Of a DNA stretch of 64,000 nucleotides, positions 16,604 to 24,477 are shown in pieces. Position 1 is the stretch's first letter. The number at the start of each line of letters is the position of its first letter. The stretch comes from Bacillota bacterium (lineage in GTDB: Bacteria > Bacillota > UBA994), in contig JAGXTJ010000008.1 in NCBI GenBank assembly GCA_018333655.1, positions 1 through 64,000 on the forward strand, in the 5' to 3' direction. A model generated the notes under the pieces. The model saw only the letters and a list, made by a program, of their open reading frames with translations, did not search any database and was not told the DNA's origin. The position numbers and the translations under genes were made by a program.

Positions 16604-17629
16604 TTACCACACTACCACCAGTGGGGACAAACTAGAACGGGCTTCCCCAATTTCTCTCGCCGCGACTCCCCGCCGTAGCAGCATGGCTACCACTTCGTCA
16701 GCTTGTGCGGCACCCACGGCAAAGAGTAGCCCTCCACTAGTTTGGGGGTCAAAAAGCACGTCTCGCCAGATCTCATCTACGGCTACGTCAAAATCAATGA
16801 ACTTGCCGAAGTGAGCCGCATTACTATAGGCACCTGCCGGCACTAGGCCCATGGCGGCATAGTCGCGCACCCCGGGGAGTACAGGTATGGCGGCGGTGTA
16901 GAGGTGAATTTCCACATTGCTGCCTAGCGCTAATTCCACCGCATGCCCAAGCAAGCCAAAGCCCGTAACATCGGTGCCCCCATACACTTTGTAGGCACCA
17001 AACACTTCAGCTGCGTCTTTATTCAAGGTAGCCATCACTTGTAGCGCTGACCTACTGTGACTCTCGGCCGCAATTTCGGCCTTAGTAGCCGTAGCAATAA
17101 TCCCACTACCGAGAGGCTTGGTTAGAATGAACTTGTTGCCTGGCTCTACACCCCGATTAGTAATCATAGCCTCTGGGTTCACAATGCCTGTTACCGCCAT
17201 ACCGTACTTAATATCGTCATTCTCGACGGTGTGCCCGCCAAGTATCACGACCTTGGCCTCGAGCGCCTTCATAGCCCCACCGCGCAAGATTTCACCCATC
17301 ACTTCGGGAGGGATGCAAGCAGCGTAGCAGACGATGTTGAGCGCGGTCAGGGGAACACCCCCCATGGCGTAAACATCGCTAAGTGCGTTAGCGGCGGCGA
17401 TTTGCCCAAACAAGTAGGCGTCGTCGGTCATGGGGCTGAAAAAATCGACAGTCTGCACTAAAGCGGTACCGTCATTGAGCATGTACACCCCGGCATCATC
17501 GCTGGTTTCAATCCCTACCAAGACTCTAGGGTCGGTCACTCTGGGTAGGTGTTGTAGTATTTTTTCTAGGGCGCCCGGCCCGAGCTTACTGGCTCACCCG
17601 CCACCTTTAGAAAACGTCGTCAACTTCAT
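16604..17629 (-). CDS. selD: Selenide, water dikinase SelD, itself a selenoprotein (Sec12)
   Basis: SelD makes selenophosphate from selenide and ATP, the selenium donor for Sec-tRNA synthesis. ATG at 17629 gives MKLTTFSKGGG, then in-frame TGA 17594-17596, then ASKLGPGALEKILQ. The active-site motif is therefore U-x-x-K, with Sec where other SelD proteins have Cys. Total is 341 residues; GIETSDDAGVYML, VILGGHTVENDD and DPQTSGGLLFAV are family signatures. A short stem starts 12 bases after the UGA. The start overlaps the LysR stop (ATGA). Ordinary ORF calling drops the first 30 residues including the catalytic site. Confidence 0.95.
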
Positions 17630-19119: not shown

Positions 19120-19216
19120 TGGCGGGAGTATGTGGGAATCGAACCCACCGCGGACTTGTCTAGAGCCCGCTGCCGGGTTTGAAGCCCGGAAGGCACACCA
19201 GAACCTATCTACTCCC
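19120..19216 (-). tRNA. selC: tRNA-Sec (anticodon UCA)
   Basis: The 97-base gene starts GGGAGTAGATAGG and ends TACTCCCGCCA, with the CCA encoded. The acceptor GGGAGTA pairs with TACTCCC. The anticodon loop CTTCAAA carries UCA, flanked by the CCGGG stem, and a long variable arm (GCGGGCTCTAGACAAGTCCGC) follows. The T-arm GGTTCGATTCC is standard. Length, anticodon and the long arm identify it as the selenocysteine tRNA. It lies 9 bases after selB. Confidence 0.96.
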
Positions 19217-19225
19217 ACTACAAGT

Positions 19226-21160
19226 TTAGCACGGGAGAAATACGCTGTCAAAGGAGGCTGCCAGCCGCCTATTTTCGCCAGAGCGGACTGTCAGTCGTTT
19301 TTGGTCGCAATACTCCAGTAGGGGTAGGGCATACTTGCGGCTTGAATCGATCATGGTACGAAAGGTAGCGAGTGTGAGTTCCTCTTCACTTTGAAAATGG
19401 GCCACGATAAGCTCTCGGGTACGTATCAGTGCCTGAGGGTGAAAGTACAGGCCTTCGGCCACTTTAACTACCTCCCCTCGCAAAGATAGTGCCTCCATAA
19501 TTTCTTTCTGCTCTTCTAAGGTCAGCGAGAGCTTTAGCGCTAGTTCATCTACCAGGGGAGGGCTAAAGAGCTCTGTGTGGAGTACGTCTAGGGTCTGTTC
19601 ACGTCCCCGCGCCCATTTACCGACAAACTCTACGGCAAAGTCGCGACTGGCGATGGTGCGCGACCCCAGAACATAGCCTGCCTCGTTCTGCAGAAACAAA
19701 AGGAGTGAAGCAAAGAGGCGGCTGTTAGCACTAGGCAGTACTTTGCTACGGAGTTCCTCGCGCGGCAGGCCACTGCGCAAAGGATACCGGCGATGGTACA
19801 GCACTAGCTCCGCGTCTATTTTTTTCTGCAGATGATCGGTGGCCAAGCTTGAGACGATAAATTCATGCTCGTCAGCCCGCAGGCTGTATACCGCCTCCTT
19901 GGCCAGAAGCTCTTCGAGCTCTTCCTCTTTGTCCTGGCGGTGCACAAGGCGCAGCAGTTCTTCGCGCGTCAAAATTTGTCCCTCCGCCTTCTGCAAAGTA
20001 TGCATGATGACCTCGCCCGTGCTTCCTCTTTCCAAGGTCTCTAATTCAGCAATGCTCTTTTCTCTAAAGCGTTTACGCTTTAGCGGCACAGGGTCGATGA
20101 CGCTACCCCCACCAATGGTCAGCATGGGTGAGTAGGAACGCAAAACAAAGCGGTCGCCTGCCCGCACCGCTAGGGGCTCCTCTAAACGCAGCTGAGCATA
20201 GGCGCTCTCCCCCGGCGCTAAGGCATCTTGTTCTAAGAGCACCACGCGACAAAGAACTTCTGCCGCACCGGTGTAGACGCGTAGCCGTTCACGATTAGTA
20301 AGGAGCTTCTCAGCCTCAGCTAAGAGTGATAGGCGCACGTCAAGCATCAGCGAGGGCAGCAGGCTGTGCGGGGCGGCTAGTACATCCCCACGCGAAAGCT
20401 CGGCAACTTGCACCCCCGCGAGATTTAGGGCGGTGCGCTGACCTGCTCCCGCCTGCGCCACTTTCTGTCCATGCACGCCAAGGCCGCGTACGCGCGCTGA
20501 GAGCCCTGCCGGAAGTATTTCTACCGTATCGCCTACCTTCACATCTCCGGCTAGCAAGGTGCCAGTCACCACAGTGCCAAAACCTTGCACCGTAAAGACA
20601 CGATCAATGGGCATGCGCATTGGTTCGGCTACATCCTTGGGGCGTGCTTGATCACCTAGAGCATCTATTTCTGCCACTAGCGCAGGCAAACCTAGCCCGG
20701 TAACGGCCGAAACGGGTACGAGGGGGGCATTAGCGAGAAAAGTCCCCTGTACTTTCTCGCGGATATCTAAAATTACTAGTTCAAGCCACTCGGAATCCAC
20801 TAAATCGGCCTTGGTCACGACGATAATACCGTGCTTGACCTGCAAGATAGACAAAATGGCCAGATGCTCGCTTGATTGCGGCATGACGCCTTCATCGGCA
20901 GCGACAATCCAGAGAACGATGTCAATGCCCCCGGCCCCGGCAAGCATGTTCTTGATAAAGCGTTCGTGTCCGGGCACATCCACAATGCCAGCCCGCCGAC
21001 CACTTGGCAAGTCAAAAAAAGCAAAGCCTAGATCAATGGTGATGCCGCGTTCCTTCTCTTCTTTCAGACGATCGCAATCGATGCCCGTCAACGCGCGCAC
21101 CAAGGTCGTCTTGCCGTGATCGATATGACCCGACGTACCAATGACAAAATGCCGCCTCAT
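19226..21160 (-). CDS. selB: Selenocysteine-specific elongation factor SelB
   Basis: SelB delivers Sec-tRNA to UGA codons that carry a SECIS hairpin. The 644-residue protein opens with an EF-Tu-like GTPase: [10 protein letters not shown] (G1), RGITIDLGF (G2), DVPGHERF (G3), TKADL (G4). EF-Tu domain 2/3-like barrels follow ([11 protein letters not shown]), and winged-helix repeats near 420-630 end in [17 protein letters not shown], the RNA-binding part. The start overlaps the selA stop (ATGA). Confidence 0.95.
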
Positions 21161-22542
21161 GCCGGCACCTCTGCGGCAAGGGAGGCGAGGGCCTCGACAA
21201 TCTCTTCTTTTTCACCAGGCAAGACACAGCGCAGGTCTAGGAGCACCCGACCCTTTTCCAGGCGCGCAATGATGGGCACCGCCCGCTGTCTCAGTTTGTG
21301 CAGCAGCTCCATGCACCCTAGGGGAGACAGAATAGCTACTGCCCACCCCAGTAGTTCCTGGCCAGGCAAGGAGCCCCCGCCCACCTGCCCAGAAGAGGCC
21401 ATCACTTGCACTTGCATACCTCTGAGGTTACCAATTTGGGCTGCTAAGGCTTCGGCTTTCTCTCTTAACTCATCTACAGGCATCCTGAGCATACTTAGGA
21501 GTGGTACTCTCTCTAGATAATCACCGTGGCGGTAGAGGCGCAGAGTCGCCTCGAGCGCAGCTAAAGTTAGTTTGTCAATGCGCAGGGCGCGTGCTAAGGG
21601 GTGGCGAGCAATAAGCTCTATTAAGTGCTTTTTGCCAACAATGATACCTGCCTGCGGCCCCCCCAGCAGTTTGTCCCCCGAGAAAGTTATCACATCTAGG
21701 CCAGAGGACACTGCCTCTTGCACTGTGGGCTCGCCCCAGAGGGGTAGCATTGTCCCACTGCCGAGGTCTTCAATGGCCAGGACATGGTGGGTTTTGGCCA
21801 GCGCGACCAGTTCCGCCCGTGAGGCGGTTGCCGTAAAACCCGTTACCAAGAAATTACTGGTGTGCACTTTGAGCAAGGCCGCTGTTTGCTCCGTGATGGC
21901 GCGTTCGTAATCTCGCGCATAGGTCTTGTTGGTTGTACCAACTTCTCTAAGCCTCGCGCCACCCTGCAGTATGACCTCGGGAATGCGAAAAGCCCCCCCG
22001 ATCTCAACTAACTCGCCCCGCGACACGACTACTTCCCGCTCCTTGGCCAGAGCACTAAGGACCAGTAGCACTGCACCCGCATTGTTGTTAACCACGAGAG
22101 CATCTTCCGCCCCGGTAAGTTCACAGAGGAGAGCCCGCACATGGCTTTGGCGGCTTCCCCGCTCACCTGTATCTAGCTCGTATTCTAAAGTCGAATACCC
22201 CTTCGCCGCCATAACCACCGCGGCGATGGCCTCCTCCGCTAAGGGCGCACGGCCTAAGTTGGTATGCAAAGGAAGCCCTGTGCAGTTGATGACCCGCCGC
22301 AGGCTCATCTGCCTCTTCTCCCCCAGTATGGTCTGCACGCGGGCGAGGAGCCCAGTATGAGGTTGAGGTGTAGCTAGGGCGGCAGCTTCCTCGGCCAAAA
22401 TAGCGCCCCTCATTTCCTCTAGCGCGTTCTGCACTGCTTCTCGCACCCCTACTCGCCCGTAAGTGGCTACTAGTTCAGCAAACTCGCCCCGCCGCAGAAC
22501 TTCATCGACTTGGGGAATTTCGCGCAAGCGTTGTGTGTTCAC
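21157..22542 (-). CDS. selA: L-seryl-tRNA(Sec) selenium transferase SelA
   Basis: SelA converts Ser-tRNA-Sec to Sec-tRNA-Sec with selenophosphate and PLP. The 461-residue protein has an N-terminal domain (MNTQRLREIPQVDEVLRRGE), INCTGLPLHTNLGRAPL, NNNAGAVLL and the PLP-Lys segment TFSGDKLLGGPQAGIIVG. It overlaps trxB upstream and selB downstream by four bases each, a tight operon. Confidence 0.95.
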   Translation of the reverse strand: MNTQRLREIPQVDEVLRRGEFAELVATYGRVGVREAVQNALEEMRGAILAEEAAALATPQPHTGLLARVQTILGEKRQMSLRRVINCTGLPLHTNLGRAPLAEEAIAAVVMAAKGYSTLEYELDTGERGSRQSHVRALLCELTGAEDALVVNNNAGAVLLVLSALAKEREVVVSRGELVEIGGAFRIPEVILQGGARLREVGTTNKTYARDYERAITEQTAALLKVHTSNFLVTGFTATASRAELVALAKTHHVLAIEDLGSGTMLPLWGEPTVQEAVSSGLDVITFSGDKLLGGPQAGIIVGKKHLIELIARHPLARALRIDKLTLAALEATLRLYRHGDYLERVPLLSMLRMPVDELREKAEALAAQIGNLRGMQVQVMASSGQVGGGSLPGQELLGWAVAILSPLGCMELLHKLRQRAVPIIARLEKGRVLLDLRCVLPGEKEEIVEALASLAAEVPA

Positions 22543-23465
22543 GAGCTTTTGCCCTCTAGGTACTTGTCCACCGAGTAAGCAGCTAAGGCTCCATCCCCAA
22601 CAGCGGTAGCAACTTGCCGCAAATGTTTCTGCCGCACGTCACCCGCCACAAAGACGCCGGGCAGGGAAGTAGTTAAGTCATCGCCCGCCAAGACATAGCC
22701 TGTGGCATCAAGTCGCAAGGCCCCTTGGAAAACGCTGGTGCTTGGCACCTGCCCAATGAGAACGAATACTCCATCGATGGGTAGCACGAAATCTTCGCCG
22801 GTCAAGACATTAGTCAGGATGACCCCGGCGACCTTCCCTTCCCCGAGGATGCTTTTCACTGTGGTGTTGTACATGATACGAATTTTAGGGTTGTCTTCCG
22901 CTCTCTTTACCAATACGCTTTGCGCCCTAAACTTCTCGCGCCGATGCACTAAAGTCACTGAGGCCGCAAAGCGAGTAAGAAAATGCGCTTCTTCTACAGC
23001 GGTATCGCCCCCACCGACAACCAAGACATGTTTGTGGGCATACAGTGGCCCGTCACAGGTGGCACAAAAAGACACCCCCTGGCCTGTAAATCTAGCTTCG
23101 CCTGGGATGTCTAGTCGGCGCGAAGATGCACCCGTAGCCACTATGACGGCTTTTCCATAGTATGTCCCCGACAAACCCACAACCTGTTTTACTTCACCGC
23201 TAAACTCAACACTTTGCACATCGTCATAAATGACTTCTACCCCAAAACCTTCTGCCTGCCGTAACATGGAGAGGGCTAGCTCAACACCGTCAATAGGCTC
23301 AGCGAAGCCCGGGTAGTTTTCGATGATGGCTGTGGTGGCCATCTGGCCGCCCGGGCCTAGCCGTTCCAGCAAAAGCGTCTTCAAGTTAGCTCGCGCCGCA
23401 TAGAGGGCCGCCGTAAGCCCCGCTGGGCCCGCACCCAAGACTAAGACATCGTAAATATCGTTCAC
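22539..23465 (-). CDS. trxB: Thioredoxin reductase
   Basis: The 308-residue FAD/NADPH enzyme has GAGPAGLTAALYAAR, the redox pair Cys134-Ala-Thr-Cys137, the NADPH motif VGGGDTAVEEA and FVAGDVRQKHLRQ. It is the stand-alone counterpart of the fused reductase in the grd operon. Being first in the selA-selB-selC operon, it may supply thiol reducing power for selenide handling, which is inference. Confidence 0.93.
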   Translation of the reverse strand: MNDIYDVLVLGAGPAGLTAALYAARANLKTLLLERLGPGGQMATTAIIENYPGFAEPIDGVELALSMLRQAEGFGVEVIYDDVQSVEFSGEVKQVVGLSGTYYGKAVIVATGASSRRLDIPGEARFTGQGVSFCATCDGPLYAHKHVLVVGGGDTAVEEAHFLTRFAASVTLVHRREKFRAQSVLVKRAEDNPKIRIMYNTTVKSILGEGKVAGVILTNVLTGEDFVLPIDGVFVLIGQVPSTSVFQGALRLDATGYVLAGDDLTTSLPGVFVAGDVRQKHLRQVATAVGDGALAAYSVDKYLEGKSS

Positions 23466-23479
23466 AACGAACCTCCTAT

Positions 23480-23517
23480 CTAAAATAAATAACGACCCAC
23501 GAGAGTTTCGTGGGTCG
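23480..23517 (-). terminator. Terminator of the fur-csoR-metallochaperone operon
   Basis: On the minus strand CGACCCACGA pairs perfectly with TCGTGGGTCG (ten pairs, five-base loop) and is followed by TTATTTATTTTAG. It separates this operon from trxB. Confidence 0.85.
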
Positions 23518-23524
23518 AGAATAT

Positions 23525-23734
23525 CTAGGCCTCTATGTCATATCCGGTATCAGCGATCGAACCTTTCAAGATGTCGAGCGACACCTTTTCGGGGTCGTAT
23601 GAAATGCTCACCTTGCGCTTCATAAGATCGACTGCCACCGCATGGACTCCAGGCACGCTTGATAAAGCTCGACTCACGGTCGCCTTACAATGGCCTCAAG
23701 TCATTCCTGCTACAATAAAAGCAACTTCTTTCAT
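23525..23734 (-). CDS. Heavy-metal-associated (CopZ-like) selenoprotein (Sec13)
   Basis: ATG at 23734 follows AGGAGGTATCGGC and reads MKEVAFIVAGMT, then TGA 23696-23698, then GHCKATVSRALSSVPGVHAV and on to a TAG at 23525. The 69-residue product is a complete ferredoxin-like HMA domain. The metal site GMTCxxC of this family reads GMT-U-GH-C, so the UGA lies exactly at the first metal-binding Cys. A short stem (CGAC/GTCG, five-base loop) begins 13 bases after the UGA, the same spacing as in grdB and selD here. The genome has the full Sec machinery. It is co-transcribed with csoR, so copper or a similar thiophilic metal is the likely ligand. Alternatives are a nonsense mutation or a premature stop, but reading frame and homology continue to a normal end. 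Confidence 0.85.
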
Positions 23735-23765: not shown

Positions 23766-24029
23766 TTACTTCATGTATCGCTCTAAAGCGGCGAGCAGCT
23801 CGTCAATGGACTCCTCTGCCTGCCCCGACCTAATGGCAGAGGCTAAGCACCCTCGCGCATGTCCATCTAAAACTTTAAGACCGACGCTGTCGAGTGCAGC
23901 CCGGGCGGCAGCAACCTGCGTGAGGATTTCTAGGCAGTAGCGATCTTCTTCGACCATGCGCTGTAGACCACGGACCTGCCCTTCAATTTTACGCAGACGC
24001 TGCAGTATATCTTCACGCGGGGCTTTCAT
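23766..24029 (-). CDS. csoR: CsoR-family copper-sensing repressor
   Basis: Starting at ATG 24029 (MKAPREDILQRLRKIEGQVRG) the product has 87 residues. The Cu(I) ligands of CsoR, Cys-His-Cys, are present in DRYCLEIL and DGHARGCLA. The all-helical family represses copper chaperone and exporter genes. It overlaps the end of fur by 17 bases and precedes the metallochaperone by 31. No copper ATPase is in the window. Confidence 0.88.
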   Translation of the reverse strand: MKAPREDILQRLRKIEGQVRGLQRMVEEDRYCLEILTQVAAARAALDSVGLKVLDGHARGCLASAIRSGQAEESIDELLAALERYMK

Positions 24030-24477
24030 TGTGGGGCTCCCGACAGCCTTGGCAGTAGCCAAAGAACCGCAAGCTATGGTCCGTAATCTTGAAATTACTT
24101 TGCTTAGCAATACGCGCCTCCAATTCATCGAGCAGATCTTCGTTGAACTCGATGATTTCGCCGCAGCTTAAGCACATGAGATGATGATGGTAATGCCTCT
24201 CTTTATCGCTTGCCAGCTCGTACTTGCGACCGCCTTCGCAAAAATCGAGACGCGAGACAATGCCAAGACTCTCAAAAAGGTCTAGAGTCCTGTAGACTGT
24301 CGCTAGGCCGATTTCGGGATTCTTCTCGCGCGTTACAGTGTAGATCTCTTCCGCTGTCATATGGTTGATCTCCGTTGCGAGAAGAATACGCAAAATAGCC
24401 TCGCGCTGTGGCGTAAGGCGAAAATCTTTCTCTTTAAGTACCCCGATAATTTGCGCTATGTTTTGCTCCACCGACAC
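24013..24477 (-). CDS. Fur-family metalloregulator
   Basis: The 154-residue product has the Fur winged helix (FRLTPQREAILRILL, TAEEIYTVTREKNPEIGLATVYRTLDLFESLGIV). The metal sites are HYHHHLMCLSCG and a second CQGC near the end, two CxxC pairs as in Zn-structural Fur and PerR proteins. Fur, PerR and Zur cannot be told apart with certainty here. It is the first gene of the operon with csoR and the Sec metallochaperone. Confidence 0.88.
   Translation of the reverse strand: MSVEQNIAQIIGVLKEKDFRLTPQREAILRILLATEINHMTAEEIYTVTREKNPEIGLATVYRTLDLFESLGIVSRLDFCEGGRKYELASDKERHYHHHLMCLSCGEIIEFNEDLLDELEARIAKQSNFKITDHSLRFFGYCQGCREPHNESPA

Follow-up and report, generated by a model that had tools for sequence, protein, structure and literature searches.

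Our main finding is that a stretch of 64,000 nucleotides of a Bacillota genome (the window, by which we mean this stretch at its full length) carries a gene, here called hmaU, whose product is best read from its sequence as a genuine selenocysteine (Sec)-containing CopZ. The gene lies at 23525..23734 on the minus strand, which was missing from the initial annotation of this DNA, with an ATG at 23734 and a stop at 23525-23527, and encodes a CopZ-like HMA protein of 69 amino acids. Its translation contains a single in-frame UGA, at codon 13 (23696..23698, minus strand), and reads from 23734 to 23525 as MKEVAFIVAGMT-U-GHCKATVSRAL...GYDIEA. According to the initial annotation, this UGA takes the very place of the first Cys in the HMA metal motif, and the frame runs on to a normal domain end. 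Both observations hold: codon 13 (23698-23696) is the first Cys of GMTCxxC, hence the first ligand of an MxUxxC metal site, and, with C written for U, the 69 residues form a clear HMA domain that scores 70.2 bits against Pfam HMA (cut-off 24.8). TGA is also used as an ordinary stop within the window.

The genome has the Sec machinery, that is, selA, selB, selD and a tRNA-Sec and, as had been noted earlier, all four genes are found within about 7 kb, on the minus strand like hmaU: selA at 21157..22542 (TIGR00474, 572 bits), selB at 19226..21160 (TIGR00475, 375 bits), the tRNA-Sec, with a UCA anticodon, at 19120..19216, and selD at 16604..17629. SelD is itself a selenoprotein, with its own in-frame UGA at 17596-17594 (GGG-U-ASK); the ORF caller places the selD start late, at 17539. 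In-frame UGA codons are also present in grdA (CFV-U) and grdB (U-GTC), at 12478-11066 on the minus strand; an Rfam SECIS_4 element lies by these genes (11065-11028, minus strand), and a glycine riboswitch (16507-16405, minus strand) precedes the genes for thioredoxin and glycine reductase.

Conservation of the UGA was examined in the class to which the window belongs, represented by 15 genomes, all of which encode SelB. An hmaU orthologue with UGA at the same codon is present in the three genomes of the genus and in five others of the family (f1), hence in 8/8, and in two genomes of a second family of the class (G009 and G011). Since it is kept in ten species, the UGA is beyond what chance would leave. 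Proteins encoded by the UGA-bearing orthologues are 41-72% identical to HmaU of the window, and the codons 3' of the UGA show a pN much lower than pS; pairs with enough divergence but no saturation give a dN/dS of about 0.15-0.3. In the test that the initial annotation had proposed, tblastn with U or C at this position returned UGA in Sec-using relatives (the eight members of the family and the two of the second) and Cys in other homologues, including, in a third family of the class, copies that adjoin selA. The in-frame UGA is thus conserved and aligned to a Cys of homologues, as expected for a selenoprotein. Across the phylum, a protein search at E<=1e-12 in 399 genomes detected the UGA in these ten only, and a motif search of the same 399 genomes gave two further stand-alone Sec-HMA genes; four other pattern matches (L176, L177, L178 and L181) were devoid of HMA homology and were set aside. 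A scan of named genomes returned mostly distant homologues, two of which (L046 and L047) were inspected more closely. One could propose that the UGA of hmaU is an ordinary stop, leaving a pseudogene or a short peptide, as its read-through is a prediction and a decaying copy exists in G008, a genome of the third family. We consider this extremely improbable: in ten species, all Sec-decoding, the UGA is retained and the frame beyond it is intact and evolves under purifying selection, and the residues on either side of the UGA belong to one conserved domain.

Downstream of the UGA, a SECIS-like apical hairpin, CGAC-CGUGA-GUCG (23670..23682, minus strand), occupies positions +14 to +26. It starts 13 nt after the UGA and is probably the hairpin that the initial annotation described as 13 bases on, a description that it fits; the intrinsic terminator found 3' of the gene is a separate element. 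Within the family, synonymous sites hardly vary in the codons that form the hairpin (GCG-RCC-GTG-AGT-CGA), and codon identity differs inside and outside the hairpin (rank test, p ~0.03). In G009 and G011, different sequences form a stem in roughly this position (CGCA-GUUA-UGCG and GCGAGC-AGUU-GCUCGC, respectively). Overall, a stem of at least 4 pairs is found at the SECIS position in 10/10 Sec genes, which belong to three lineages and are therefore not independent, versus 0/26 Cys homologues. The apical GU of the Sec genes of the class falls in a conserved Val codon and therefore does not count as independent evidence. As for folding energy, the native hairpins were not more stable than synonymous shuffles and folding 141 nt that include the UGA gave no advantage over shuffles; energy was not significant and was consequently left out of the evidence. 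Because of this, and because an Rfam scan of hmaU gave no match to a SECIS model, we regard the hairpin as a likely rather than a proven SECIS element.

The product resembles CopZ in sequence and in predicted structure. The best NCBIfam model is the CopZ of Bacillus subtilis (CopZ_Bs), at 76.4 bits, below its cut-off of 91. The AlphaFold model has a mean pLDDT of 90.7, and its top Foldseek matches are the CopZ metallochaperones 6ff2 and 2qif, with TM scores of 0.95-0.97; Pfam, AlphaFold and Foldseek thus agree on the HMA ferredoxin-like fold of a CopZ. Bacterial CopZ proteins have a His-Cys pair in the metal loop and a Tyr at position 65. In the orthologues Tyr65 is nearly invariant and His15, the His of this pair, is kept in most, Ser replacing it in G001 and G002. 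The two-thiol MxCxxC site of CopZ is absent, the motif being strictly MxUxxC, and the position of the UGA at the first metal ligand makes HmaU a Sec variant and not a standard CopZ. The genome has two other HMA domains, both with Cys sites and both in one CopA-like ATPase, the gene of which lies on another contig, outside the hmaU operon; hmaU therefore encodes the only stand-alone HMA protein of this genome.

The placement of hmaU after fur and csoR, already recognized in the initial annotation, was confirmed. The unit starts with a fur-family regulator (24013..24477, minus strand), which is overlapped by csoR (23766..24029, minus strand), a copper-type metal-sensing repressor with C-H-C ligands; hmaU follows csoR after 31 nt. 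An intrinsic terminator with a 10-bp stem and a T-rich tail (23493..23517, minus strand) separates hmaU from trxB, which encodes a thioredoxin reductase (22539..23465, minus strand; TIGR01292, 379 bits). This suggests that fur-csoR-hmaU is one transcription unit, and that trxB-selA-selB is the next. The order fur-csoR-hmaU-trxB-selA-selB-tRNA-Sec-lysR-selD is kept across the family, as far as contigs allow, and fur-csoR-hmaU-trxB-selA-selB is kept in G009, while the G011 copy is located elsewhere in its genome. The Cu(I) ligands C-H-C of CsoR (YC..., H-x3-C) are found in 9/9 loci.

Taken together, the CopZ-like sequence and fold, the C-H-C CsoR and the distant Sec-CopZ genes beside copper ATPases described below narrow the likely metal to Cu(I). 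We judge it probable that HmaU is a CopZ-type metallochaperone for Cu(I), located in the cytosol, with Sec as the first of the two metal-binding residues of an MxCxxC site. The UGA would be read as Sec by SelB and tRNA-Sec through the hairpin just downstream. Since CsoR has C-H-C ligands and its gene appears to share a transcription unit with hmaU, the two proteins would be made together, and rising Cu(I) would cause CsoR to derepress hmaU. With a selenolate and a thiolate as its two ligands, the protein would then hold Cu(I) and hand it over to the CopA-type Cu(I)-ATPase encoded elsewhere in the genome.

The neighborhood of trxB raises the alternative that HmaU is a thiol/selenol oxidoreductase and not mainly a copper carrier, a UxxC motif on an HMA scaffold being reduced by the adjoining TrxB. 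In its favor, trxB adjoins hmaU in the family and in G009, as it does the Cys homologues of family f16 (L015, L029, L030 and L045), and the UxxC motif of hmaU is of a type usually considered redox-active in selenoproteins (review PMC13188914). The terminator nevertheless stands between these two genes in the window, as do similar hairpins in G001, G002 and G004; the CopZ features (the HC of the loop in most orthologues, and Tyr65) are kept, CsoR is of the copper type, and the copies of family f73 adjoin a copper ATPase and not trxB. On balance we find an oxidoreductase unlikely, and retain the Cu(I) chaperone as the preferred reading. The pairing in f16, where a Cys CopZ-like gene adjoins trxB in four loci, is a recurring CopZ-TrxB association in its own right.

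The proximity of hmaU to selA could alternatively mean that HmaU serves selenium supply, or keeps copper or selenide from harming the Sec machinery, and belongs with selA and selB rather than with copper export. An HMA gene indeed immediately precedes trxB-selA in f1 and in G009, and a Cys HMA gene directly precedes selA itself in two genomes of the third family, G010 and G012. A third genome of that family, G008, has upstream of selA a decaying HMA relic (L109) with UGA at the same codon, the intact Cys version being that of its genus-mate G010. Outside the class, 60 selA loci of the same phylum had no HMA, csoR, fur or trxB homologue nearby (0/60), on which ground a general association of HMA genes with selA was rejected; the link between hmaU and selA is therefore a property of this class. 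Moreover, three genomes of family f3 keep fur-csoR-trxB-selA-selB without an HMA gene, and the G011 copy lies away from this locus. A role in selenium supply or in shielding thus appears very unlikely compared to one in copper handling.

A second lineage bears on both the residue and the metal. The two further genes from the motif search are stand-alone Sec-CopZ genes of the distant family f73, with the motifs GMTUNHC (G121, L180) and GMTUMHC (G156, L179), and the two proteins are 47% identical to each other. Each gene is directly downstream of a P-type ATPase gene whose product scores above the NCBIfam copper-ATPase cut-off, and the predicted hairpins have a common stem, in which a C-G pair of one is a U-A pair in the other. 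These hairpins and the adjacent copper ATPases support both Sec and a role in copper handling. One reservation is that a search for selA in G121, a genome that is 81% complete, gave no match. Another soft metal, for example Hg(II), Cd(II) or Ag(I), might instead be the cargo of HmaU: the MerP and MerTP models give it 47-48 bits, and selenolates bind Hg(II) strongly. The CopZ models outscore the others, however, CsoR is copper-type, no mer gene is present beside hmaU, and the partner in f73 is a copper ATPase, so that we give such a cargo a distinctly low probability and keep Cu(I) as the metal.

A broader scenario is that this lineage ties copper handling to the Sec machinery: a Sec-CopZ would depend on Sec insertion and at the same time protect it, copper and selenium status would be read jointly, and stand-alone CopZ would have acquired Sec on at least two occasions, in this class and in f73. 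The HMA tree was too poorly resolved to count Sec gains, and we put this scenario forward tentatively, as doubtful in its entirety. Should HmaU be what we propose, a soluble Cu(I) chaperone with selenolate as a ligand would exist in nature, allowing a direct test of selenium as a metal ligand and not as a redox center. Related genomes encode this small protein in a Sec and in a Cys form, which could be compared for affinity, transfer rate and resistance to oxidation.

Sec in HMA metal domains is known already. HMA-type selenoproteins, including UxxC cation ATPases, have been catalogued (PMC13188914), and NCBIfam lists a UxxU protein (NF041115) and a MerT/CopZ fusion (NF045683). The stand-alone UxxC CopZ is not included in the family table of 119 selenoprotein families of that 2026 review, and it appears from our search, which did not extend to supplements and NCBI protein records, that no description of it has been published. 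The closest known systems are the CopZ/Atx1 chaperones (NF033795, PDB 2qif and 6ff2), to which HmaU is similar in size, in its ferredoxin-like fold, in Tyr65, in its csoR neighbor and in a loop of the MxCxxC type, usually with H before the second Cys; it differs in that the first metal-site Cys is Sec, the score is below the NCBIfam cut-off and copA is outside the operon. The UxxU metal-binding (seleno)protein NF041115 is likewise small and HMA-type with Sec in the metal motif, but it has two Sec residues (UxxU) where HmaU has one (UxxC), and HmaU falls outside this family by motif as well as by score (53 bits, cut-off 95). The UxxC cation-transporting E1-E2 ATPases (TIGR01525; PMC13188914, Table 1) have UxxC in a heavy-metal ATPase and are membrane pumps, whereas HmaU would be a soluble chaperone. 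In P-type ATPases of G010 (L104, GMTUAAC), G012 (L110, GMTUASC) and G008 (L111, GVDUPEC), UGA replaces the first Cys of an HMA site; these are genomes of the very family that has Cys in the selA-adjacent HMA protein. The MerT/CopZ fusion-like heavy-metal transport selenoprotein NF045683 also has a CopZ-like domain, but fused to MerT, and HmaU reaches 32 bits for a cut-off of 375. Finally, the (2Fe-2S)-binding 'CopZ family' selenoproteins (cd10141) share the CopZ name with HmaU, their Sec residing, according to the domain assignment of the review, in the Fe-S domain and not in an HMA domain.
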